Assembly: GCA_029881795.1 (NCBI GenBank)
Contig: JAOULX010000003.1
Coordinates: forward strand, 1 to 64,000
Direction: 5' to 3'
From: Gammaproteobacteria bacterium
GTDB taxonomy: Bacteria; Pseudomonadota; Gammaproteobacteria; SZUA-229
Length of the DNA stretch: 64,000 nucleotides
In this document: positions 1,074 through 29,260 of the stretch, in pieces
Numbering within the stretch: position 1 is the stretch's first letter
Layout of the letters: each line of letters starts with the position of its first letter
Notes under the pieces: generated by a model
The model's database searches: none
Seen by the model: only the letters and a program-made list of their open reading frames with translations
Told to the model about the DNA's origin: nothing
Translations under genes and position numbers: made by a program

Positions 1074-1802
1074 TTATGGCAACCTTCTGGCTTCAAGCAT
1101 ACGCGATTTCAGCACCGTTAAAGAAACCCACATCACCAGATCATCATAGCCGGCAGCTGTCACTGAGCTGTAATCATCATCCAGAAATGTTGTATCGTCA
1201 TTGCAATTTTCATCCTCGATACTTGAAGGAAAATTTGCTGCGCAAGGAAAACCGCCAGCTATCGTTCGGCGACCGTTTTCACCGTAGGATATCACCACTG
1301 CCGGAATATCGTTAGCGATCAGGTTTGCGCCCCTGTCTTCAATTCTGATATTTCCGTTATCGGCCATAGAGAAACTCGCATCCAGTGCAGTAGTATTACC
1401 GCCACCATCTATTGCTGGCGGCAGATTGGCAAAACTCAGATTACCCGTACCTCTGACACGGTAACGCAAACCATTACCCCAGGCATCTTGTCCACCGACT
1501 CCAATATCTACAAATGGTAAAAAACCCTCATCATCATCACAGCTAGTTGTATTATCTGGATTTTGTGGGTTTTCTATACCATCACCATCTGTGTCCGGAC
1601 AAGGCAAACGTCCTTCTGTTGTTGCGAATCCGATCAGCGCCTGATTAATATTTTGTAAAATCTGCCTTGTCTCATCGCGTTTTAATTGTTGACGTTGTAC
1701 GCCGACAGTTTTTATTACGCCGCCCAGTATCAGGCCCATGACGATCAGTACAATCGTAATCTCTATTAAGGTGAAGCCTTTAGTTATTATCCTTGGCGTC
1801 AT
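1074..1802 (-). CDS. Type IV prepilin-like protein
   Basis: 242 residues with a class III prepilin signal: short leader ending in G9, then FTLIE and a hydrophobic helix, with glutamate at mature position 5. The globular part holds a cysteine loop (PCPDTDGDGIEN) that resembles a calcium-binding Asp-rich turn, followed by a GFLPF...AWGNGLRYRV block. The same CPD loop occurs in the giant prepilin just upstream, whose end it overlaps by 4 bases (ATGA). It is probably a minor or major pilin of the MSHA-like pilus; which one cannot be told from sequence. Confidence 0.88.
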   Translation of the reverse strand: MTPRIITKGFTLIEITIVLIVMGLILGGVIKTVGVQRQQLKRDETRQILQNINQALIGFATTEGRLPCPDTDGDGIENPQNPDNTTSCDDDEGFLPFVDIGVGGQDAWGNGLRYRVRGTGNLSFANLPPAIDGGGNTTALDASFSMADNGNIRIEDRGANLIANDIPAVVISYGENGRRTIAGGFPCAANFPSSIEDENCNDDTTFLDDDYSSVTAAGYDDLVMWVSLTVLKSRMLEARRLP

Positions 1803-3865
1803 GGACAGACGCCTGTTGTCATCGGGTCAGAATTATTAATACAGTATAAATAGTCATTACCTGCATCCGGGTCATAGCTGCGGCTACCTGTCGCATCGGC
1901 AGGATTTGGAAATGCAGCACCAACATTGGCACCTTCTAAGTAATTGGAAATAATATTTTTTGTATCGGTATCACCCGCAACTGGCCCGTTTCTCATTATA
2001 CCCGGCTGTCGCTCACCCGAAAAAAACACAATCCCTGCATGCCGATTACCATTTGTCTTCACGCATTTTGCGCCCGCAAACGAGCACGCCACATTCGTGG
2101 AGTCTGGCGCATAACTACCTGAGACAACATAAAAAAAGTGATCTTTCCAGTGCTGCCATAAAGTAAATTCTTCAGTTGACAAACAACCGTTAAGAATATT
2201 CTGTATGCCTTTGCTACCACCCACTGATGGACAACTGTTAACAGTATTACAGAGGTCGTATATGGCCTGAGCCTCCGCCATATCCTCCGCATAATCTTCA
2301 TCAGCATCTGCTATCTCTTTATCACGCTCAGCTTCACAGGCTTGAATTTTATTGGCATTGCCTTTAGCTTGGCTAACACAGCTTGTGAACTGCCCCGGAA
2401 TAGCTCCTTTAGATTTATCCAGTTTTTTTACCGCTTCTGCCACTGCTGCATCAAAATCTGTCTGACAATCTGTGCAATCACTGGTGCTACCACCACCGGT
2501 TGTACTACATGAATGTTTGCTTAAACAACCGTAATAGTCCTGTAATTCATCAGCTGTTATTTCAGCAATCTCCTGATCATATTTAGTCTGCGCAGCTGCC
2601 AGATCCTGGGCCAGATCAACATCACATTGAGCCTTTGTTTTATTCGGATTGCCCAAACATAGCTGGTAATCTGTATTGGCCTTATCCACATCCAGGCGAA
2701 AATCAGCCAGTTCTTCACCCAGCTCTTCAATATACTTGTCATATTTTTCTTTACACTGGATGCAACTTGGCGGCCCAATCACGCTAACTCCTCCGGTTCC
2801 GGTATTGTCGCTGGCATTCGCCTCCAGTTGAGCTTCACTATTTGAAACATTTTCAGGTAGGCGACCGAGTAAACTGGCAGGCGCAGCAATGTCGGCATAA
2901 CTCACATCATCACGATAATCCGCTCCGCCCAGATTCAGTTCGGCGGGCCATGGTAAATTCCGCGCTCCGCCACCCGCATTGCCGTAATCGGCTATACAGT
3001 TTGCGATTGATGCTGTCAGATTTTCTATTGTCGCTTCATAATCGCGGCGACGTTTTACGGCAGACCAGATATCACGCTGCGTAACAATGGCAATTTTATC
3101 ATTAAAGGGAGTTTCTGCTGTTTCAGTCTGAGTGCCGGATTTAATAAAACGGTCTATCGTATCTGCGACACCTGAAAGCGTCGAATTATCGATATCGCCA
3201 TTACCTTCAAGATATTGTGTCGCATCATAACCACCTCTACAGACTCTTGTACCCTCATCACTATCAATAAATCCAGCCCGGTTCTGTTGGCCCAGTGGCG
3301 CTCCGGGAGCTAATATAACGGCAACGACTCTTTCTTCTGGCACCGTACCATTGATCAAGCTACCCTCTGCATCGTAAATTTCAAACACGCCGTTGCTATC
3401 ATCATTTAACATGCCTGTTTTATTTACTGCCAATGTTGTATTTTTATAAGCTCCTGAAACGGCATACCAGAGACACTCATTTGCACCATCACGTAATGGT
3501 TTTATATCTAAAGAGCGCCAAGGAAAACGACCGATGACGCTGTTATTACTACCACCTGCGTCACAGTTGTCACTGCCGCCTTCAAAAATAATTCCATTTT
3601 CATTCATATCAGGACACGGCATAAACCCCATGTCACCATCATGGCTATCAATATAACTGACCGCATAGGCAATCAGAGCTTTTTTGGCTTCTGCAAGCGA
3701 GGCAACCTGATTGACCTTCTGCACCAGTCTGCTGCTAATAGAGCCTGAATTATTTAGTAAATAAAAAGCCGCCATTGATGCCAGCACTACCATAGCAATC
3801 AATAGTGCAGCACCAGATTGTCTTCGAGGCTTCATCAGTGCAGCTTTATTTGTCTGATTTTTCAT
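1799..3865 (-). CDS. Giant prepilin-like protein with Cys-rich inserts
   Basis: 688 residues, several times the size of a normal pilin. The N terminus (RRQSGAALLIAMVVLASM) is a prepilin-type leader and helix with cleavage expected after G18. Residues 84-263 and about 290-688 look like two copies of one pilin head: GRFP/GRLP, YAVSGAY/YVVSGSY and QYLEGN/NYLEGA recur in the same order. The second head is interrupted by two consecutive six-cysteine helical modules (C368-C453 and C464-C545). A good ribosome site (GGGAG, 4 bases before ATG) supports this start, which overlaps the mshK-like gene by 20 bases. It could be a tip adhesin-like minor pilin (inference). Confidence 0.85.
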   Translation of the reverse strand: MKNQTNKAALMKPRRQSGAALLIAMVVLASMAAFYLLNNSGSISSRLVQKVNQVASLAEAKKALIAYAVSYIDSHDGDMGFMPCPDMNENGIIFEGGSDNCDAGGSNNSVIGRFPWRSLDIKPLRDGANECLWYAVSGAYKNTTLAVNKTGMLNDDSNGVFEIYDAEGSLINGTVPEERVVAVILAPGAPLGQQNRAGFIDSDEGTRVCRGGYDATQYLEGNGDIDNSTLSGVADTIDRFIKSGTQTETAETPFNDKIAIVTQRDIWSAVKRRRDYEATIENLTASIANCIADYGNAGGGARNLPWPAELNLGGADYRDDVSYADIAAPASLLGRLPENVSNSEAQLEANASDNTGTGGVSVIGPPSCIQCKEKYDKYIEELGEELADFRLDVDKANTDYQLCLGNPNKTKAQCDVDLAQDLAAAQTKYDQEIAEITADELQDYYGCLSKHSCSTTGGGSTSDCTDCQTDFDAAVAEAVKKLDKSKGAIPGQFTSCVSQAKGNANKIQACEAERDKEIADADEDYAEDMAEAQAIYDLCNTVNSCPSVGGSKGIQNILNGCLSTEEFTLWQHWKDHFFYVVSGSYAPDSTNVACSFAGAKCVKTNGNRHAGIVFFSGERQPGIMRNGPVAGDTDTKNIISNYLEGANVGAAFPNPADATGSRSYDPDAGNDYLYCINNSDPMTTGVCP

Positions 3866-4262
3866 AGCGCTCCCGTACTGTCTTTTGGTTGGCTAAAACA
3901 AACTGCCCTGGCTTGAGATTTACTACAGACTGGCCATCACGTTTTATTGCCACGTTTCCGCTTTTCTGCACCTTTAAAACCCTGAGTCCAGTTATCGGCT
4001 TTTTTGTTTTAAGGGTGTTCTCAGAATTGACCCAGACAACATCAGGCTGACCCTTTCGTATTAAATAACCTTTTAACTCAACTACATCAATATTTTGTTT
4101 AGGTGCTTTATTATTTACAGTATTTTTATCGGCAGCCGGTTTTTGTCTGTCGATTTGTGCCCGTTCCTGTGCCGAATAAAACAGCCGTTTCAAGTTTTGC
4201 TCTGCCATCGCAAGTCCTGTAGCGAGTAAATTCAAAAGCAAAACATAAGCTAAATATTTCAT
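3846..4262 (-). CDS. MshK/PilP-like pilus biogenesis protein
   Basis: 138 residues with a clear signal peptide (cleavage near LAMAEQ). The C-terminal half (LKGYLIRKGQPDVVWVN ... VAIKRDGQSVVNLKPGQ) has the small beta-fold pattern of PilP/GspC-like or MshK periplasmic proteins that connect the inner-membrane platform to the secretin. It directly follows the PilO-like gene with no gap and overlaps the giant prepilin start. Assignment rests on position and fold pattern, not on a strong signature. Confidence 0.7.
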   Translation of the reverse strand: MKYLAYVLLLNLLATGLAMAEQNLKRLFYSAQERAQIDRQKPAADKNTVNNKAPKQNIDVVELKGYLIRKGQPDVVWVNSENTLKTKKPITGLRVLKVQKSGNVAIKRDGQSVVNLKPGQFVLANQKTVRERYEKSDK

Positions 4263-4850
4263 CTACAACACCTTAAAGGTAAACCATTTTAAATGGCACT
4301 GTGCATCGATATTTTCCACTGCAAATTGCACATTAGCTGCTGCTAAGCGTTTAAGTTCACAGGAGCTGAGCAGATGAATCGCGGATTTAATATTGTCAAT
4401 ATCCCTCAGTACTGCAATCAGTTGCTGCTCATGCTTTAACTTCATCGACAGTGTAATATTGCTAACATTAACTTTCAAACCTCGTTCACTAATCAAACCA
4501 TCTTTATAGTCATACGGAATCTGGCTGCCGAAACTGTAATTAATCGCACTAAGATTGTGCTTGGTTCGTATCGTCTGTAGACGGTCTATCAGGTATAACC
4601 TGTTCTCTGTCTCATACTGTTTTACTGGCATATAGTGATTAAAACGGCTCTCATATTCAGACGCCATTCCGGTTGTCTCAGTCAGTGTTTTAAAGCGGCT
4701 GGCCTCAGCAGTTAGCTTAGAGTTCAGCCTTTTGTAATCATCATTCTTTGTCTGATATAACTGGAAAAACACCACAAACACAATAACCGACGTAAAAAGC
4801 AATAACGCTTTCGCAATCAGCTGATTATATTTTTTTAGATTATCCTGCAA
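4263..4850 (-). CDS. mshJ: MshJ/PilO-like pilus platform protein
   Basis: 195 residues: short cytoplasmic N terminus, one membrane helix at about 12-32, a coiled-coil stretch (KRLNSKLTAEASRFKTLTE) and a small periplasmic ferredoxin-like domain. This is the architecture of PilO/GspM-type alignment proteins, called MshJ in MSHA loci. It overlaps the end of the MshI gene by 11 bases. Two cysteines near the C terminus (CELKRL, CHLKWF) may pair. Confidence 0.75.
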   Translation of the reverse strand: MQDNLKKYNQLIAKALLLFTSVIVFVVFFQLYQTKNDDYKRLNSKLTAEASRFKTLTETTGMASEYESRFNHYMPVKQYETENRLYLIDRLQTIRTKHNLSAINYSFGSQIPYDYKDGLISERGLKVNVSNITLSMKLKHEQQLIAVLRDIDNIKSAIHLLSSCELKRLAAANVQFAVENIDAQCHLKWFTFKVL

Positions 4851-6387
4851 GTGATTCGTCCTTCATGGTCAGAACAAACGAAAAATCAGCAGGGTCATTC
4901 GCTTTATCTGATATAACACCACTAATTCCATTTGACGGATTATCATTCAATACCGCTTTAGTCAGCCTAACATCGTCAACTGCGTCCAGCTTTTCCATTG
5001 CATGAATAAAATTACTAACCATAGCTTTTAATGCCTGCTTGTCGGCCTTGTTAGTAACAACCGATGCCAAAATAACAACCGCCTGCCGAGACTTGGCTGA
5101 AACAGATGATGTTTGCCCGCGCCTATTTGTCTTATTTATTCCTTTACTCTGTTTTAAATCGGCTTCATTAATTGCCCATTTTATTTCCTTCAGTTCGATA
5201 TTCGGATAGGCTGCAAATACTCCGCTGATTTTTATCATTACTTTGTCAACGCCGCCAGATGATGCGCGCTTTAACTCATTAATATTTTCAACAAACAACC
5301 TCATTGAAGCGGGTTTGACTGATAAGCGAGACAAATCCTTTGAAAGCCTGTTATTTTCTGAGATTAGCTCACTGAGTTGTGAATCCAGACCAATAATTCT
5401 ACTTTTGATTATCTCTGTATCCAGATATAATTTAAACGATGCCATAACCAGTAACACTGATACTGCTATCGATGAAATTGAAAGCCAGCTATTTATTTGT
5501 TTTTTACGGTATATTTGCAGATCTGATTTTCTGGCGTAATGGTTATTCACTCTAGCATTCAGAAGTAACGATGCAAATATTTCACGGCCATTCACCTCAT
5601 AGCTCGAGATAAAACCCAACGCTCGTTTGAGGTCATTATATTTAGCAAAAGAAAATTGCATTTCCGGCAATAACTCGTCTACACCTTTTAGCTGCGCAAA
5701 AAAATTATCACTAGCCAGAACTAGGACATTAATCGCGCCACCGGACACCAGCAGCTTTTGATTTTCCAGATATTTTTTAGTTTTCTTAATATCTTCCGAA
5801 AATGTTTTTAGATCCAGATTTTGTGATGACGGTATATTTCTACTATAGAATATTTTCCCATCTTTATAGATGCTTTGGCGGATAAAATCACGCGACTGCC
5901 TGCTGACTAACAGCACCAGGCCTTTCTCCAGTTTTAACACTTTTAAAACCTGAGATGCAATCAGTGGCAGGGAGTAAACGCCCCTGATCATTACCTCATG
6001 CTGATTAAATATATCAAGCCATTTAAGTAACGCATCATCCGACGTCAGACTGGAAATTAGCAGTCTGTCATCTTTTCTGGGGCTATCATCTCTGCCAATA
6101 ATGCTGCTCGTTGAAAAAGAGGAGGAACGTTTAAGCCTGGCAAGCTTTCTTTCTATCAGGAATTTTCTCTCATGTGGCGCCACATGAGGAATCGTTGTCA
6201 GCATCACTTCCTCTTCTAACACATCCAGAATAATCGAGGCCGGAATTTCTTTACTGTTTTCCAGATAATCATTCAGCGCGAACTGATCTGTATCTGCTGC
6301 TTCAAATTCATAGCGCGCAATCAGTTCATCGCGTCGCCACAGCATCACAGTCATACGGTCATCCGTTATAAAGAACACCTGCCGCAT
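4840..6387 (-). CDS. mshI: MshI-like pilus platform protein (PilM-PilN type)
   Basis: 515 residues. The first ~290 form a soluble domain resembling the actin-like PilM/GspL cytoplasmic fold (GLVLLVSRQSRDFIRQSIYKD region). A single membrane helix follows near residue 300 (WLSISSIAVSVLLVMASFKLYL spans it), then a coiled coil and a periplasmic PilN-like domain. Fusion of PilM-like and PilN-like parts is what is expected of MshI. It starts 3 bases after the mshG stop and overlaps the PilO-like gene, so the platform proteins are co-translated. Confidence 0.78.
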   Translation of the reverse strand: MRQVFFITDDRMTVMLWRRDELIARYEFEAADTDQFALNDYLENSKEIPASIILDVLEEEVMLTTIPHVAPHERKFLIERKLARLKRSSSFSTSSIIGRDDSPRKDDRLLISSLTSDDALLKWLDIFNQHEVMIRGVYSLPLIASQVLKVLKLEKGLVLLVSRQSRDFIRQSIYKDGKIFYSRNIPSSQNLDLKTFSEDIKKTKKYLENQKLLVSGGAINVLVLASDNFFAQLKGVDELLPEMQFSFAKYNDLKRALGFISSYEVNGREIFASLLLNARVNNHYARKSDLQIYRKKQINSWLSISSIAVSVLLVMASFKLYLDTEIIKSRIIGLDSQLSELISENNRLSKDLSRLSVKPASMRLFVENINELKRASSGGVDKVMIKISGVFAAYPNIELKEIKWAINEADLKQSKGINKTNRRGQTSSVSAKSRQAVVILASVVTNKADKQALKAMVSNFIHAMEKLDAVDDVRLTKAVLNDNPSNGISGVISDKANDPADFSFVLTMKDESLAG

Positions 6388-7603: not shown

Positions 7604-9337
7604 CTAATTCAAACGACCAGTAAAATCAATAACCCGCGTGACTTCGTCACTGCTGGTTCTTCCATCGGCCACCCACCTTGCCGCGTCATCTTGAATCGTG
7701 ATAAAGCCTTTTCTAATAGCTGCCTGAGCAAAATCATTCATGCTGCTTTGATTCACGATCATTTCATCCAGCTCAGTATCCATACGCAGCACTTCCATCA
7801 ATGCAAAGCGGCCTTTATAACCGACATAATTACACTTCGGGCAGCCCTCTGATTCGTAGATGGTTTTAATGTTTTCATCGAAATTAAAAAGCGACCTTTC
7901 CATCTCACTGACCGGCTTTTCTTTTTTACAGTGTGTACATAACTGGCGCACCAGACGCTGTGAAACCACACCGATAATATTGCCTGCCAGTATTTCAGGT
8001 GACACACCTATATCTTTTAAGCGCGGAAAAATTCCGATGGCCGAATTGGTGTGTAACGTTGAAAAGACTTTATGGCCAGTCATTGCTGCGCGTAACGCCA
8101 TTTCTGCTGTATCTTCATCTCGAATCTCACCGATTAAAATCACGTCAGGATCCTGCCGCATCATCGAGCGTATACCGCTGGCAAAATCCAGCTTCGCCGC
8201 TTCATTGACCGAGGTCTGCCTGATCATCGGCAAAGGATATTCAACCGGGTCTTCCAGTGTCATGATATTAATATCCGGGCTGTTTATCGCCGTGATCATT
8301 GAATAGAGCGTAGTGGTTTTACCGCTGCCGGTAGGCCCGGTTACCAATAAAATTCCTTCGGGACGTGACATCATGATCTGCAAGCGAGTCAGCATTTCAT
8401 CACGCAAGCCCATATTGTGCATTTCAACGATGCCTTTTTGCCGGTCGAGTACACGCAACACCAGATTTTCACCCCAGCTAGTAGGTTGTGATGAAACACG
8501 AAAATCTATTGTCCGCCCACTGATTCCTAAAGAGATACGGCCATCCTGCGCTGAACGAGTATCAGCAATATTCATCCCCGACATGACTTTTACACGCACA
8601 ACAATCGCCGATAAAAATTTTCTGTTCAGACTTCGAATCTGCCTGAGCACACCATCTATACGATATCGAACCCGAATAAAACCTTCTTCCGGTTCTACAT
8701 GTATATCCGAAGCACCCGACTTCACCGCATCCGCCAGCAGCGCATCCATCAGGCGAACAATTGGCTGACTGTATTCAGCATCTGTTGTCTGCAAACTCTG
8801 GACATCGACAACACCGGTCTCCAGCTCATTTAAAATTCCATCAACCGATAATTCATATCCATAAAACTGATCAATAGCCGCCTGGATTTCGGACTCAACC
8901 GCCAGATTGGCTTTAATTTCTACATTGACACCCACTGCTGCCCGCAAACGGTCCAGCGCCTGCAGATCCATGGTGTCGGTCATTGCCACGGTTAATTCAT
9001 TAGTTAGTTCAAAATACAACAGGGGGATTAATTTCAACTGAATGGCTAGTTCTTTATCAACCAGCGCCAGCGCATCCGGGTCGGGAACAATATTAGAAAG
9101 GTCAACCGCTTCATGTCCCAACGCTTCGCCGAGCACATCACGAATCACCGAGTCGGTAACGAAACCCAGCGCTACCAGCATTTTACCAATCGGTAATTTT
9201 CTGGTTTTTTGTTCGGTTAAAGCTATCTTCAACTGATCTGAAGTGATCAGACCTTTATCGATTAAGGCATCACCCAGTCGTTTCGGCTGTAGTAGTGTCG
9301 GTGATTTTTTTTCACTGGAAGACGCAACAGTAGTCAT
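7604..9337 (-). CDS. mshE: Pilus extension ATPase MshE with MshEN c-di-GMP-binding domain
   Basis: 577 residues of the GspE/PilB family. Residues 20-43 (RLGDALIDKGLITSDQLK...ALTEQ) match the known MshEN c-di-GMP-binding pattern, and residues 49-70 look like the second half-motif. Next come the N2 domain (SGASDIHVEP at 207-216), the Walker A GPTGSGKT at 334-341, the Asp box with DPDVILIGEIRD, and a C-terminal CxxC...CxxC metal site (CTHCKKE, CPKCNYVG). This family powers pilus polymerisation in the cytoplasm, and in Vibrio cholerae MshE c-di-GMP binding activates it. It overlaps mshN by 4 bases. Confidence 0.95.
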   Translation of the reverse strand: MTTVASSSEKKSPTLLQPKRLGDALIDKGLITSDQLKIALTEQKTRKLPIGKMLVALGFVTDSVIRDVLGEALGHEAVDLSNIVPDPDALALVDKELAIQLKLIPLLYFELTNELTVAMTDTMDLQALDRLRAAVGVNVEIKANLAVESEIQAAIDQFYGYELSVDGILNELETGVVDVQSLQTTDAEYSQPIVRLMDALLADAVKSGASDIHVEPEEGFIRVRYRIDGVLRQIRSLNRKFLSAIVVRVKVMSGMNIADTRSAQDGRISLGISGRTIDFRVSSQPTSWGENLVLRVLDRQKGIVEMHNMGLRDEMLTRLQIMMSRPEGILLVTGPTGSGKTTTLYSMITAINSPDINIMTLEDPVEYPLPMIRQTSVNEAAKLDFASGIRSMMRQDPDVILIGEIRDEDTAEMALRAAMTGHKVFSTLHTNSAIGIFPRLKDIGVSPEILAGNIIGVVSQRLVRQLCTHCKKEKPVSEMERSLFNFDENIKTIYESEGCPKCNYVGYKGRFALMEVLRMDTELDEMIVNQSSMNDFAQAAIRKGFITIQDDAARWVADGRTSSDEVTRVIDFTGRLN

Positions 9338-27184: not shown

Positions 27185-29260
27185 TCAGCTCAATACCTTG
27201 CGTTCAAGTTTTCTAATCAACAAATTGGAATCAGCTGCTACAGCAGTTCTAACAATGTCTATACTGAAGCGACAACGCTCGCCTGTCGGCGTGATTACAC
27301 AAAGGTCATTAATATCTGCACTGGCTGCCATTTTGTGTCGCAGAAATCCGGGGCCGTACTTACGCACAGGTAAGCGAGTATTAATGATCGCTTCGATGTT
27401 TTCTCGGCCTTCAATCACACCCAGTGCTGATGCTGTCGACCACAGTCCCTGCTCATCAAACAGGAGTGCTGCGGCGGCACCATCTCGTCTGTCGACACAG
27501 TCGAGAAAACGCATCAGCAGTAGTCGCTTTGAATTTCGTGCTGCGAAACAGGTATGCAGCAATGCCTTCGCCGCTGCAGAATTTGGCGATGACAATTCTG
27601 TTGCATAGAGTCTTTGCACATCCTTATTTTCATATGAGCGACGACGTGGTGCCTGCTTGTCCATCGTATAAATGGCTTGCATACGCTTTTGCAACACCAG
27701 TGGGTCCATCGATTTGGGCTCGCCGCCGCCTCCCAGGCAACCACCAACACAGGCCATAACTTCAATCGCAACATAGTCTTTACGCCATGAGTCAGTTTCA
27801 AACATTTGTTGTGCAGCCGCGATACCATTACATATTGCGAGCTTCCCGAGCCCTGGAATCTCGGCTGTTTTTATGCCTTTATTAACGCCACGAAGTTGCT
27901 CCCATTCAAGTGGCAGCGTGTTCTCCTGACCAAGAAAATGCGAGGCTGTTCGTAGCATCGCCTCCATCACACCGCCCGATGCACCGAATATCTGCCCGGC
28001 GCCAGTGCTTTCACCCAACGGATGATCGAACTCTGCCTGTTCAGATAGCGCGGCAAAGGCGATACCTCTCGATTTGATCATTTTTGCCAGTTCTCGTGTA
28101 GTTAGTACATGATCGACATCCCCAGCTACCCCAGGCCTGGCCGCCTCATCTTTTTTTGCAGTACAGGGCATAACGCTGACCACATAAGGCTCGGTCTTGC
28201 CCTCTGTAAAATCAGGGCCGAGCGTTTTTGCGAAGAGGCCACGTTTAGTCAGCGCACCATGCATTTGTTGCGGTGATTTTGTACTGCTGAGATGTGGCAA
28301 CAGATCTGCTCGGTTTATTTCAACCCAGTTGACCCAGCCTGGACAACATGAGGTTAACAGCGGTAAGTCCTTGGCTTGCTTAAGACGCTGCAGCAACTCT
28401 GTAGCCTCTTCCATGATGGTTAGATCGGCTGCAAAATTGGTGTCAAAGACATAATCAAAGCCCAGCTGTCGCAGCGCATTAATCATTTTTCCAGTGCTAA
28501 CCGTTCCGGCTTGCATACCAAATTCTTCACTGATCGCAACGCGGGTTGCCGGTGCAACCTGCACCGCAGATATACGCCTGCCTGTTTCTAGGGTATCAAG
28601 CACTGCATGCCAATGCGGCGTCTCTATTAATGCACCGACCGGGCACACCAGTGTACACTGACCGCAGGAGATACAACCACTTGTCGCGAGTGACTGATCA
28701 AAAACTGTCACCGGTAAACGCGCTGAGCCGCGCTCGGCAAAGCCGATTATGTGTTGCTGCTGGCCAGACTCACCACAGGCCTCGACACACAAACCGCATT
28801 CAATGCATTTTTCCAGATCACGCCAGATACTTGGCGAGGTATGATCATTCAGACTGTGCTCCGGATGTTCAGGGGAGCCTCTTGCTACTGTATCCCAGCC
28901 GCTTTCCCATTGCTTCTCACTGACCAGATTTTGCAGCTGACACGAGCCGTTGACTTCACAACGCATGCAGTCATTAGGATGGCGAGCGAGTAGCCATTGC
29001 GCGTCTGTTTTACGAAAATCCTGCAATTCTGGGCTGTCAGTCTCGACGATATCACCGTCTTTAGCCCGAGTAATACAAGCTGCTTGCGGTCGCGCTTCGC
29101 CGTTAACATTGACCAGACACATACGGCAAACAGCATGGCAGGGCAAGCGAGGATGATAGCAAAGCGTGGGAATATAAACACCAGCTTGACGTGCTGCATC
29201 GAGCAAGCTCGCATCATTGTTGACCATTACAGCGCGACCATTAATGCTTAGTTTAATCAT
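27185..29260 (-). CDS. [FeFe] hydrogenase with C-terminal NTF2/SnoaL-like domain
   Basis: 691 residues. NuoG-like N terminus: [2Fe-2S] ligands C34, C45, C48, C61; His-ligated cluster H94, C98, C101, C107; two [4Fe-4S] sets C152/C155/C158/C162 and C196/C199/C202/C206. H-cluster motifs are intact: TSCCPGW (relay C305, ligand C306), MPCTAKKDE (C366) and MACVGGCLGGGGEP (C504, C508). The enzyme should interconvert H2 and protons plus electrons in the cytoplasm; no export signal is seen. Residues ~573-691 are an added domain (RFLDCVDRRDGAAAALLFDEQGLWS start region) of NTF2/SnoaL type. No HydE, HydF or HydG gene lies in the window. Confidence 0.92.
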   Translation of the reverse strand: MIKLSINGRAVMVNNDASLLDAARQAGVYIPTLCYHPRLPCHAVCRMCLVNVNGEARPQAACITRAKDGDIVETDSPELQDFRKTDAQWLLARHPNDCMRCEVNGSCQLQNLVSEKQWESGWDTVARGSPEHPEHSLNDHTSPSIWRDLEKCIECGLCVEACGESGQQQHIIGFAERGSARLPVTVFDQSLATSGCISCGQCTLVCPVGALIETPHWHAVLDTLETGRRISAVQVAPATRVAISEEFGMQAGTVSTGKMINALRQLGFDYVFDTNFAADLTIMEEATELLQRLKQAKDLPLLTSCCPGWVNWVEINRADLLPHLSSTKSPQQMHGALTKRGLFAKTLGPDFTEGKTEPYVVSVMPCTAKKDEAARPGVAGDVDHVLTTRELAKMIKSRGIAFAALSEQAEFDHPLGESTGAGQIFGASGGVMEAMLRTASHFLGQENTLPLEWEQLRGVNKGIKTAEIPGLGKLAICNGIAAAQQMFETDSWRKDYVAIEVMACVGGCLGGGGEPKSMDPLVLQKRMQAIYTMDKQAPRRRSYENKDVQRLYATELSSPNSAAAKALLHTCFAARNSKRLLLMRFLDCVDRRDGAAAALLFDEQGLWSTASALGVIEGRENIEAIINTRLPVRKYGPGFLRHKMAASADINDLCVITPTGERCRFSIDIVRTAVAADSNLLIRKLERKVLS

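Follow-up and report, generated by a model that had tools for sequence, protein, structure and literature searches.

This locus raises the question of what a protein built like an [FeFe]-hydrogenase, and extended by a further C-terminal domain, does in the cell that encodes it. The gene is located on the minus strand at 27185..29260 of the window (the whole stretch of 64,000 nucleotides analyzed here) and consists of a single ORF with an ATG start encoding a 691 amino acid protein, as defined by Pfam and NCBIfam profiles and by about 60 orthologues that share its architecture. The same uninterrupted ORF is found in about 60 genomes, which rules out a sequencing artefact as the source of the fusion. 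A sequence-only reading of this DNA had described the product as an [FeFe]-hydrogenase that should be active, fused to an NTF2/SnoaL-like domain.

Pfam analysis of the window protein identified a NuoG-like N-terminal electron-transfer module (residues ~1-214; 28619..29260, minus strand) composed of Fer2_4, NADH-G_4Fe-4S_3, and Fer4 domains. This module harbors the predicted ligands of a [2Fe-2S] cluster (C34, C45, C48, and C62), of a His-ligated [4Fe-4S] cluster (H94, C98, C101, and C107), and of two further [4Fe-4S] clusters (C152, C155, C158, and C162; C196, C199, C202, and C206). The H-domain and small-subunit region follows (residues ~230-575; 27536..28573, minus strand), recognized through the Fe_hyd_lg_C (E = 5e-83, residues 232-512) and Fe_hyd_SSU (E = 5.7e-15, residues 522-575) domains and through equivalences with CpI; it includes the putative H-cluster ligands C306, C366, C504, and C508 and the relay residues C305, E285, E288, and R292. 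The window protein passes the group A model TIGR02512 (434 bits; cut-off 406) and falls below the cut-off of the NADH-dependent group A6 model NF040763 (643.2 against 765 bits). Its best solved relatives are CpI and T. kivui HydA1, whose alignments cover residues 1-576 of the query and end there, which bears out the earlier claim that the hydrogenase part stops near residue 570 and that an extra domain comes after it. Fold comparison with the full-length model (mean pLDDT of 75, with some poor stretches) again retrieved these enzymes. Judged from these profiles and alignments, residues 1-575 form a complete group-A [FeFe]-hydrogenase, to which a 116-residue domain has been added.

This C-terminal domain (residues 576-691; 27188..27535, minus strand) was delimited by Pfam analysis of 55 clade members, an AlphaFold2 model, and structure comparison. 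The tail of the window protein itself matches SnoaL_4 only, under the gathering cut-off (E = 2e-4), while the tails of its relatives match SnoaL_2 in 54 of 55 members and SnoaL_4 in 51 of 55 (E up to 0.01), with a best value of 1.9e-10. The tail is folded in its AlphaFold2 model (pLDDT of 83.9), and all 50 structural matches listed are of the NTF2/SnoaL/KSI type (Z = 11.2-12.9), the best of them aligning 113 residues at Z = 12.9. As the window tail alone gives a weak match, its assignment to the SnoaL type is based on the profile matches of the relatives and on the predicted fold, which point to an NTF2/SnoaL/ketosteroid-isomerase alpha+beta cone starting near residue 576, as the sequence-only reading had suspected. 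The NTF2 fold is a common module for ligand binding and dimerisation. SgcJ (4ovm), ActVI-ORFA (5bka), and Saro_2766 (3ejv) fold like residues 576-691 (Z = 12.5-12.9, rmsd of 2.6-3.0 Å) with 12-24% identity; proteins of this type normally stand alone, unlike the fused tail. Across 369 gammaproteobacterial genomes we detected no close stand-alone homologue of the tail at E up to 1e-9, and each of the four tail matches in these genomes is part of a fusion or truncated at a contig end. Fifteen of the 116 tail residues are invariant across clade members.

Compared with known enzymes, the fusion protein has the domain order of residues 1-575 in common with group A HydA proteins such as CpI (1feh/4xdc) and T. 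kivui HydA1 (8a6t; 35-42% identity), together with their Fe-S ligands, H-cluster ligands, and proton relay. It differs from these two enzymes in the extra NTF2-like domain, in second-shell substitutions, and in having no HydB/HydC partners, and its carriers, unlike classical group A HydA systems, are devoid of HydEFG. T. maritima HydA (7p5h/7p8n, 645 aa) is also a group A enzyme with extra residues after ~551; this extension does not align with the fusion tail by sequence comparison, and the T. maritima genome encodes HydEFG.

The same tail, which the sequence-only reading had thought worth seeking in other [FeFe]-hydrogenases, turned up in about 60 proteobacterial members. A scan of ~85,000 species genomes yielded 63 loci, 61 of which belong to the fusion clade and carry the tail; one further locus (L097) stops at a contig edge and is not counted among the 61, and another (L108) encodes an untailed HydA outside the clade. 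The hosts are Alpha-, Beta-, Gamma-, and Zetaproteobacteria, including Thiomicrorhabdus, Gallionellaceae, Nitrosomonas, Janthinobacterium, Pseudoduganella, Paraburkholderia, Rhodoferax, Thioclava, Jannaschia, Hyphomonas, Brevundimonas, and Mariprofundus. The carriers are mostly aerobic proteobacteria, with Thioclava, Janthinobacterium, Hyphomonas, and Thiomicrorhabdus among the aerobes. Clade members share 63-80% identity with the window protein, and in a quick tree they are monophyletic with respect to 12 canonical HydAs, on a stem 3.09 changes per site long. The earlier reading had considered that close relatives might have lost the fusion, which was not seen: the tail is present in every member whose contig extends that far. 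Neither viral-contig relatives of the fusion gene nor plasmid relatives with more than 60% identity were found, and a viral or mobile origin was rejected on these grounds.

Assembly of the H-cluster is thought to require HydEFG. We searched for these maturases in 51 carrier genomes, i.e., that of the window and 50 others, among them isolates such as Thioclava, Thiomicrorhabdus, and Janthinobacterium. HydG is absent from all 51 except for one 20-bit match, HydF was found in none at E up to 1e-35, and HydE in none at E up to 1e-20; these strict limits shut out the GTPases and radical-SAM proteins that give weak matches everywhere. HypD, which marks the NiFe pathway to CN/CO, is encoded in 10 of the 51 carriers and not in the window genome, so that a Hyp-based supply of CO/CN was rejected. 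The lack of maturases near the gene, already noticed from the sequence, thus extends to the whole genome, a result that the sequence-only reading had itself named as counting against it. Given that HydEFG are absent from all carriers tested, its statement that the enzyme should be active is unsupported. We infer that this is no conventional hydrogenase matured by HydEFG, and a classical H2 role would be unlikely in vivo, as [2Fe]H could not be made by the known pathway.

Members of this clade have very probably been catalogued before. According to PMC4744846, Greening et al. assigned proteins of Thiomicrospira chilensis, T. kuenenii, T. pelophila, and Hydrogenovibrio marinus to group A1, and Hansen and Perner regarded the function of these [FeFe] proteins as uncertain, treating them as putative hydrogenases lacking biochemical data. 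We found that T. chilensis DSM 12352 carries a clade member (L101; 73% identity over 690 aa), and the A1 proteins of all four species very probably belong to the fusion clade, L101 being the one compared. Hansen and Perner measured no H2 consumption in the three Thiomicrospira species, the T. chilensis test covering uptake only and in the presence of O2 (1% or more) (PMC4744846); this result, too, does not favor the activity proposed in the earlier reading. A word search of that paper returned no mention of NTF2 or HydE. In the full-text literature, whose coverage leaves out most subscription papers, we found no description of the NTF2 tail or of a family-wide lack of maturases; the fusion is thus likely new to the literature, its members having already been catalogued as group A1.

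Our preferred explanation, to which we assign a probability of roughly 0.58, is that the gene encodes a hydrogenase-derived Fe-S protein repurposed for redox (or redox-sensing) functions and equipped with an NTF2-like ligand or dimerisation module, forming a distinct monophyletic clade (HydA-NTF2). The N-terminal [2Fe-2S]/[4Fe-4S] chain would take up electrons and pass them to the [4Fe-4S]H cubane; the conserved pocket beside the cubane may be empty or hold another occupant; and the NTF2-like domain could act as a ligand pocket or as a dimer interface, modulating or dimerising the protein. Repurposing is favored by the absence of HydEFG (0/51), the long stem of the clade, its low dN/dS, the lack of H2 uptake reported for T. 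chilensis (PMC4744846), the aerobes among the hosts, the sporadic gltBD and 2-oxoacid:ferredoxin oxidoreductase neighbors described below, and family-wide changes in the second shell, namely (CpI residue first) H500/P to V505, Q509 to E514, A/V415 to Q423, F328 to H334, and V233 to T239. Apart from the catalytic residues, some 40 positions of the H-domain are fixed in the clade and rare in canonical enzymes; several of them, Q423, H334, and T239 included, lie beside the H-cluster loops, where the clade reads MACVGGCLGGGGEP versus MACxGGCxxGGGQP in canonical enzymes. On these grounds, the hydrogenase scaffold has been kept but retuned.

What repurposing finds hard to explain is the conservation of the active site, since invariant diiron-site and proton-path residues are difficult to square with an empty 2Fe pocket. 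In our alignment, C305, C306, C366, C504, and C508 correspond to CpI C299, C300, C355, C499, and C503, which confirms the ligands and relay cysteine named in the sequence-only reading; the CpI C300 position is Ser in 4 of the 12 canonical comparison sequences and is therefore not universal. All 16 N-terminal Fe-S ligands are invariant across 52 members, and so are the 12 H-cluster, proton-path, and pocket residues tested, in members drawn from four classes (p ~6e-6), against a background of 130 invariant columns among 346 in the H-domain. The eight non-ligand residues among these 12 (C305, E285, E288, R292, S329, M364, K369, and M502) by themselves give a hypergeometric p of ~3e-4 against the same background. 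They include C305, E285, E288, and R292, equivalent to the proton-path residues C299, E279, E282, and R286 of CpI; S325, equivalent to S319 of the same path, is conserved in more than 90% of members.

Because this pocket conservation is a strong fact that repurposing explains poorly, the main rival, possible though doubtful, is a true [FeFe]-hydrogenase in which [2Fe]H is built without HydEFG through a new maturation route, in which the NTF2-like domain might help, e.g., by carrying or protecting a cofactor precursor or by conferring O2 tolerance. It draws on the invariance of every ligand, proton-relay, and CN/CO-pocket residue tested, on strong purifying selection, and on the precedent of HydA genes in genomes without maturases, as in Rhodospirillum rubrum and some anaerobic eukaryotes (PMC4967309). 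That precedent resembles the fusion carriers in placing a HydA-type gene in a HydEFG-free genome, and the view on record is that HydAs lacking maturases, the R. rubrum one for example, are inactive or otherwise employed (PMC4967309); since R. rubrum is missing from the matches of the ~85,000-genome scan, its HydA is probably not a close clade member. The consistent second-shell changes, the finding that T. chilensis took up no H2 (PMC4744846), the absence of the Hyp route to CN/CO from most carriers, and the lack of a recurrent neighbor that could be a new maturase all argue against such a route. That the clade assembles an active H-cluster, or some new center resembling it in the same pocket, independently of both HydEFG and Hyp, with the NTF2-like domain serving in maturation or O2 protection, is an unlikely prospect in our estimate. 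Either way, the conservation of the H-cluster and proton-path residues across about 60 species, with no HydEFG in any genome tested, implies a second route for filling the site or reuse of the scaffold in aerobes, alternatives open to study in cultivable isolates (Thiomicrorhabdus, Thioclava, and Janthinobacterium). Environmental surveys of H2 metabolism that call these proteins group-A HydA may be mistaken.

The genomic context bears on an improbable third explanation, an H2 or redox sensor or regulator in which the H-domain senses and the NTF2-like domain relays the signal or dimerises. The ligand-binding and dimerisation roles common to the NTF2 fold fit this idea, and HydDB lists the group C [FeFe] hydrogenases as putative sensors. 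On the other hand, the protein has no signalling domain, there is no conserved regulatory neighbor, and the full N-terminal electron wire and the catalytic proton path, less needed by sensors, have been kept. In the window the gene is solitary, flanked by a DUF4760 ORF on one side and by an ORF without Pfam match on the other. ORF clustering revealed no neighbor present in more than 10 of 64 loci, overlapping frames of the gene itself aside, and a conserved operon was therefore rejected. As no NuoE/F-like (HydB/HydC) neighbor occurs in the window or recurs across the clade loci, and as the A6 model stays under its cut-off, a bifurcating HydABC complex was also rejected. HydDB defines group A2 (glutamate synthase-linked) by a GltA/GltD-like gene directly downstream of the catalytic gene, and the window has no such neighbor. 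Elsewhere in the clade, gltBD lies upstream or within ~4 kb of the gene in Thiomicrorhabdus, and a GltD-like flavoprotein with a 2-oxoacid:ferredoxin oxidoreductase is found at two loci only (upstream in L053, downstream in L066); these sporadic neighbors suggest a link with ferredoxin/NAD(P)H redox balance for a gene that is usually solitary. Upstream FNR/Anr sites (up to 2 mismatches) occur in 17 of 58 members versus ~10 expected, which is not convincing evidence of such control.

An ordinary HydEFG-dependent hydrogenase, with maturases missed in incomplete assemblies, too divergent to be detected, or supplied by neighboring cells, is very improbable. Some carriers are indeed incomplete MAGs, and the window genome is 97.5% complete; against this explanation, three independent genes are missing from all 51 carriers, isolates included. 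The searches recovered HydF and HydE at the strict limits, as well as HydG, in the T. maritima control. Of the 5 genomes with an untailed HydA in the gammaproteobacterial sample, 4 have a HydG match over the cut-off (G181, G190, G301, and G306), while no genome with a tailed HydA has one; the comparison of 0/51 with 4/5 (Fisher p = 1.4e-5) is descriptive, as the genomes are not independent. We consider this explanation largely refuted. The fifth untailed-HydA genome (G399, locus L122; 96% complete) encodes a canonical HydA without detected HydG, which may reflect an assembly gap or another maturase-less case.

Finally, the fusion gene is patchily distributed, being present in 3 of the 37 genomes from the window's family (its own included) and in 4 of 369 in the gammaproteobacterial class sample. 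One genome of the same family (G024, contig C255; locus L045, 1840-2191) retains a frameshifted 3' remnant covering residues ~552-669 in three frames, indicating gene loss by decay. Outside the two closest pairs, whose higher tail values rest on very few changes, dN/dS lies mostly at ~0.05-0.2 for the core and at 0.1-0.35 for the tail; the gene is under purifying selection. A drifting relic without function, left from a hydrogenase gene acquired laterally, which could account for the patchiness, the G024 remnant, and a deleted second copy in Aquabacterium, is hardly tenable, being contradicted by this selection in many pairs, by the full-length open frame kept in almost every member with a contig spanning the gene, and by the 130 invariant H-domain columns.

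Three further observations concern individual sequences. The Aquabacterium copy (L109, 6001-7365; Aquabacterium sp. CECT 9606, on the contig shared with L081), which is counted among the 61, lacks query residues 157-276 and 399-513, with a continuous frame and an intact tail. The untailed HydA of L108 (484-3792, Propionibacteriaceae MAG) is 1103 aa long and, on reading by eye, apparently has a GltD-like flavoprotein fused within its N-terminal half. In the window, two large ORFs at 1799-6387, of 688 and 515 aa, have no Pfam match at E up to 1e-10; a gene for a type II/IV secretion ATPase lies close to them (7604-9337).
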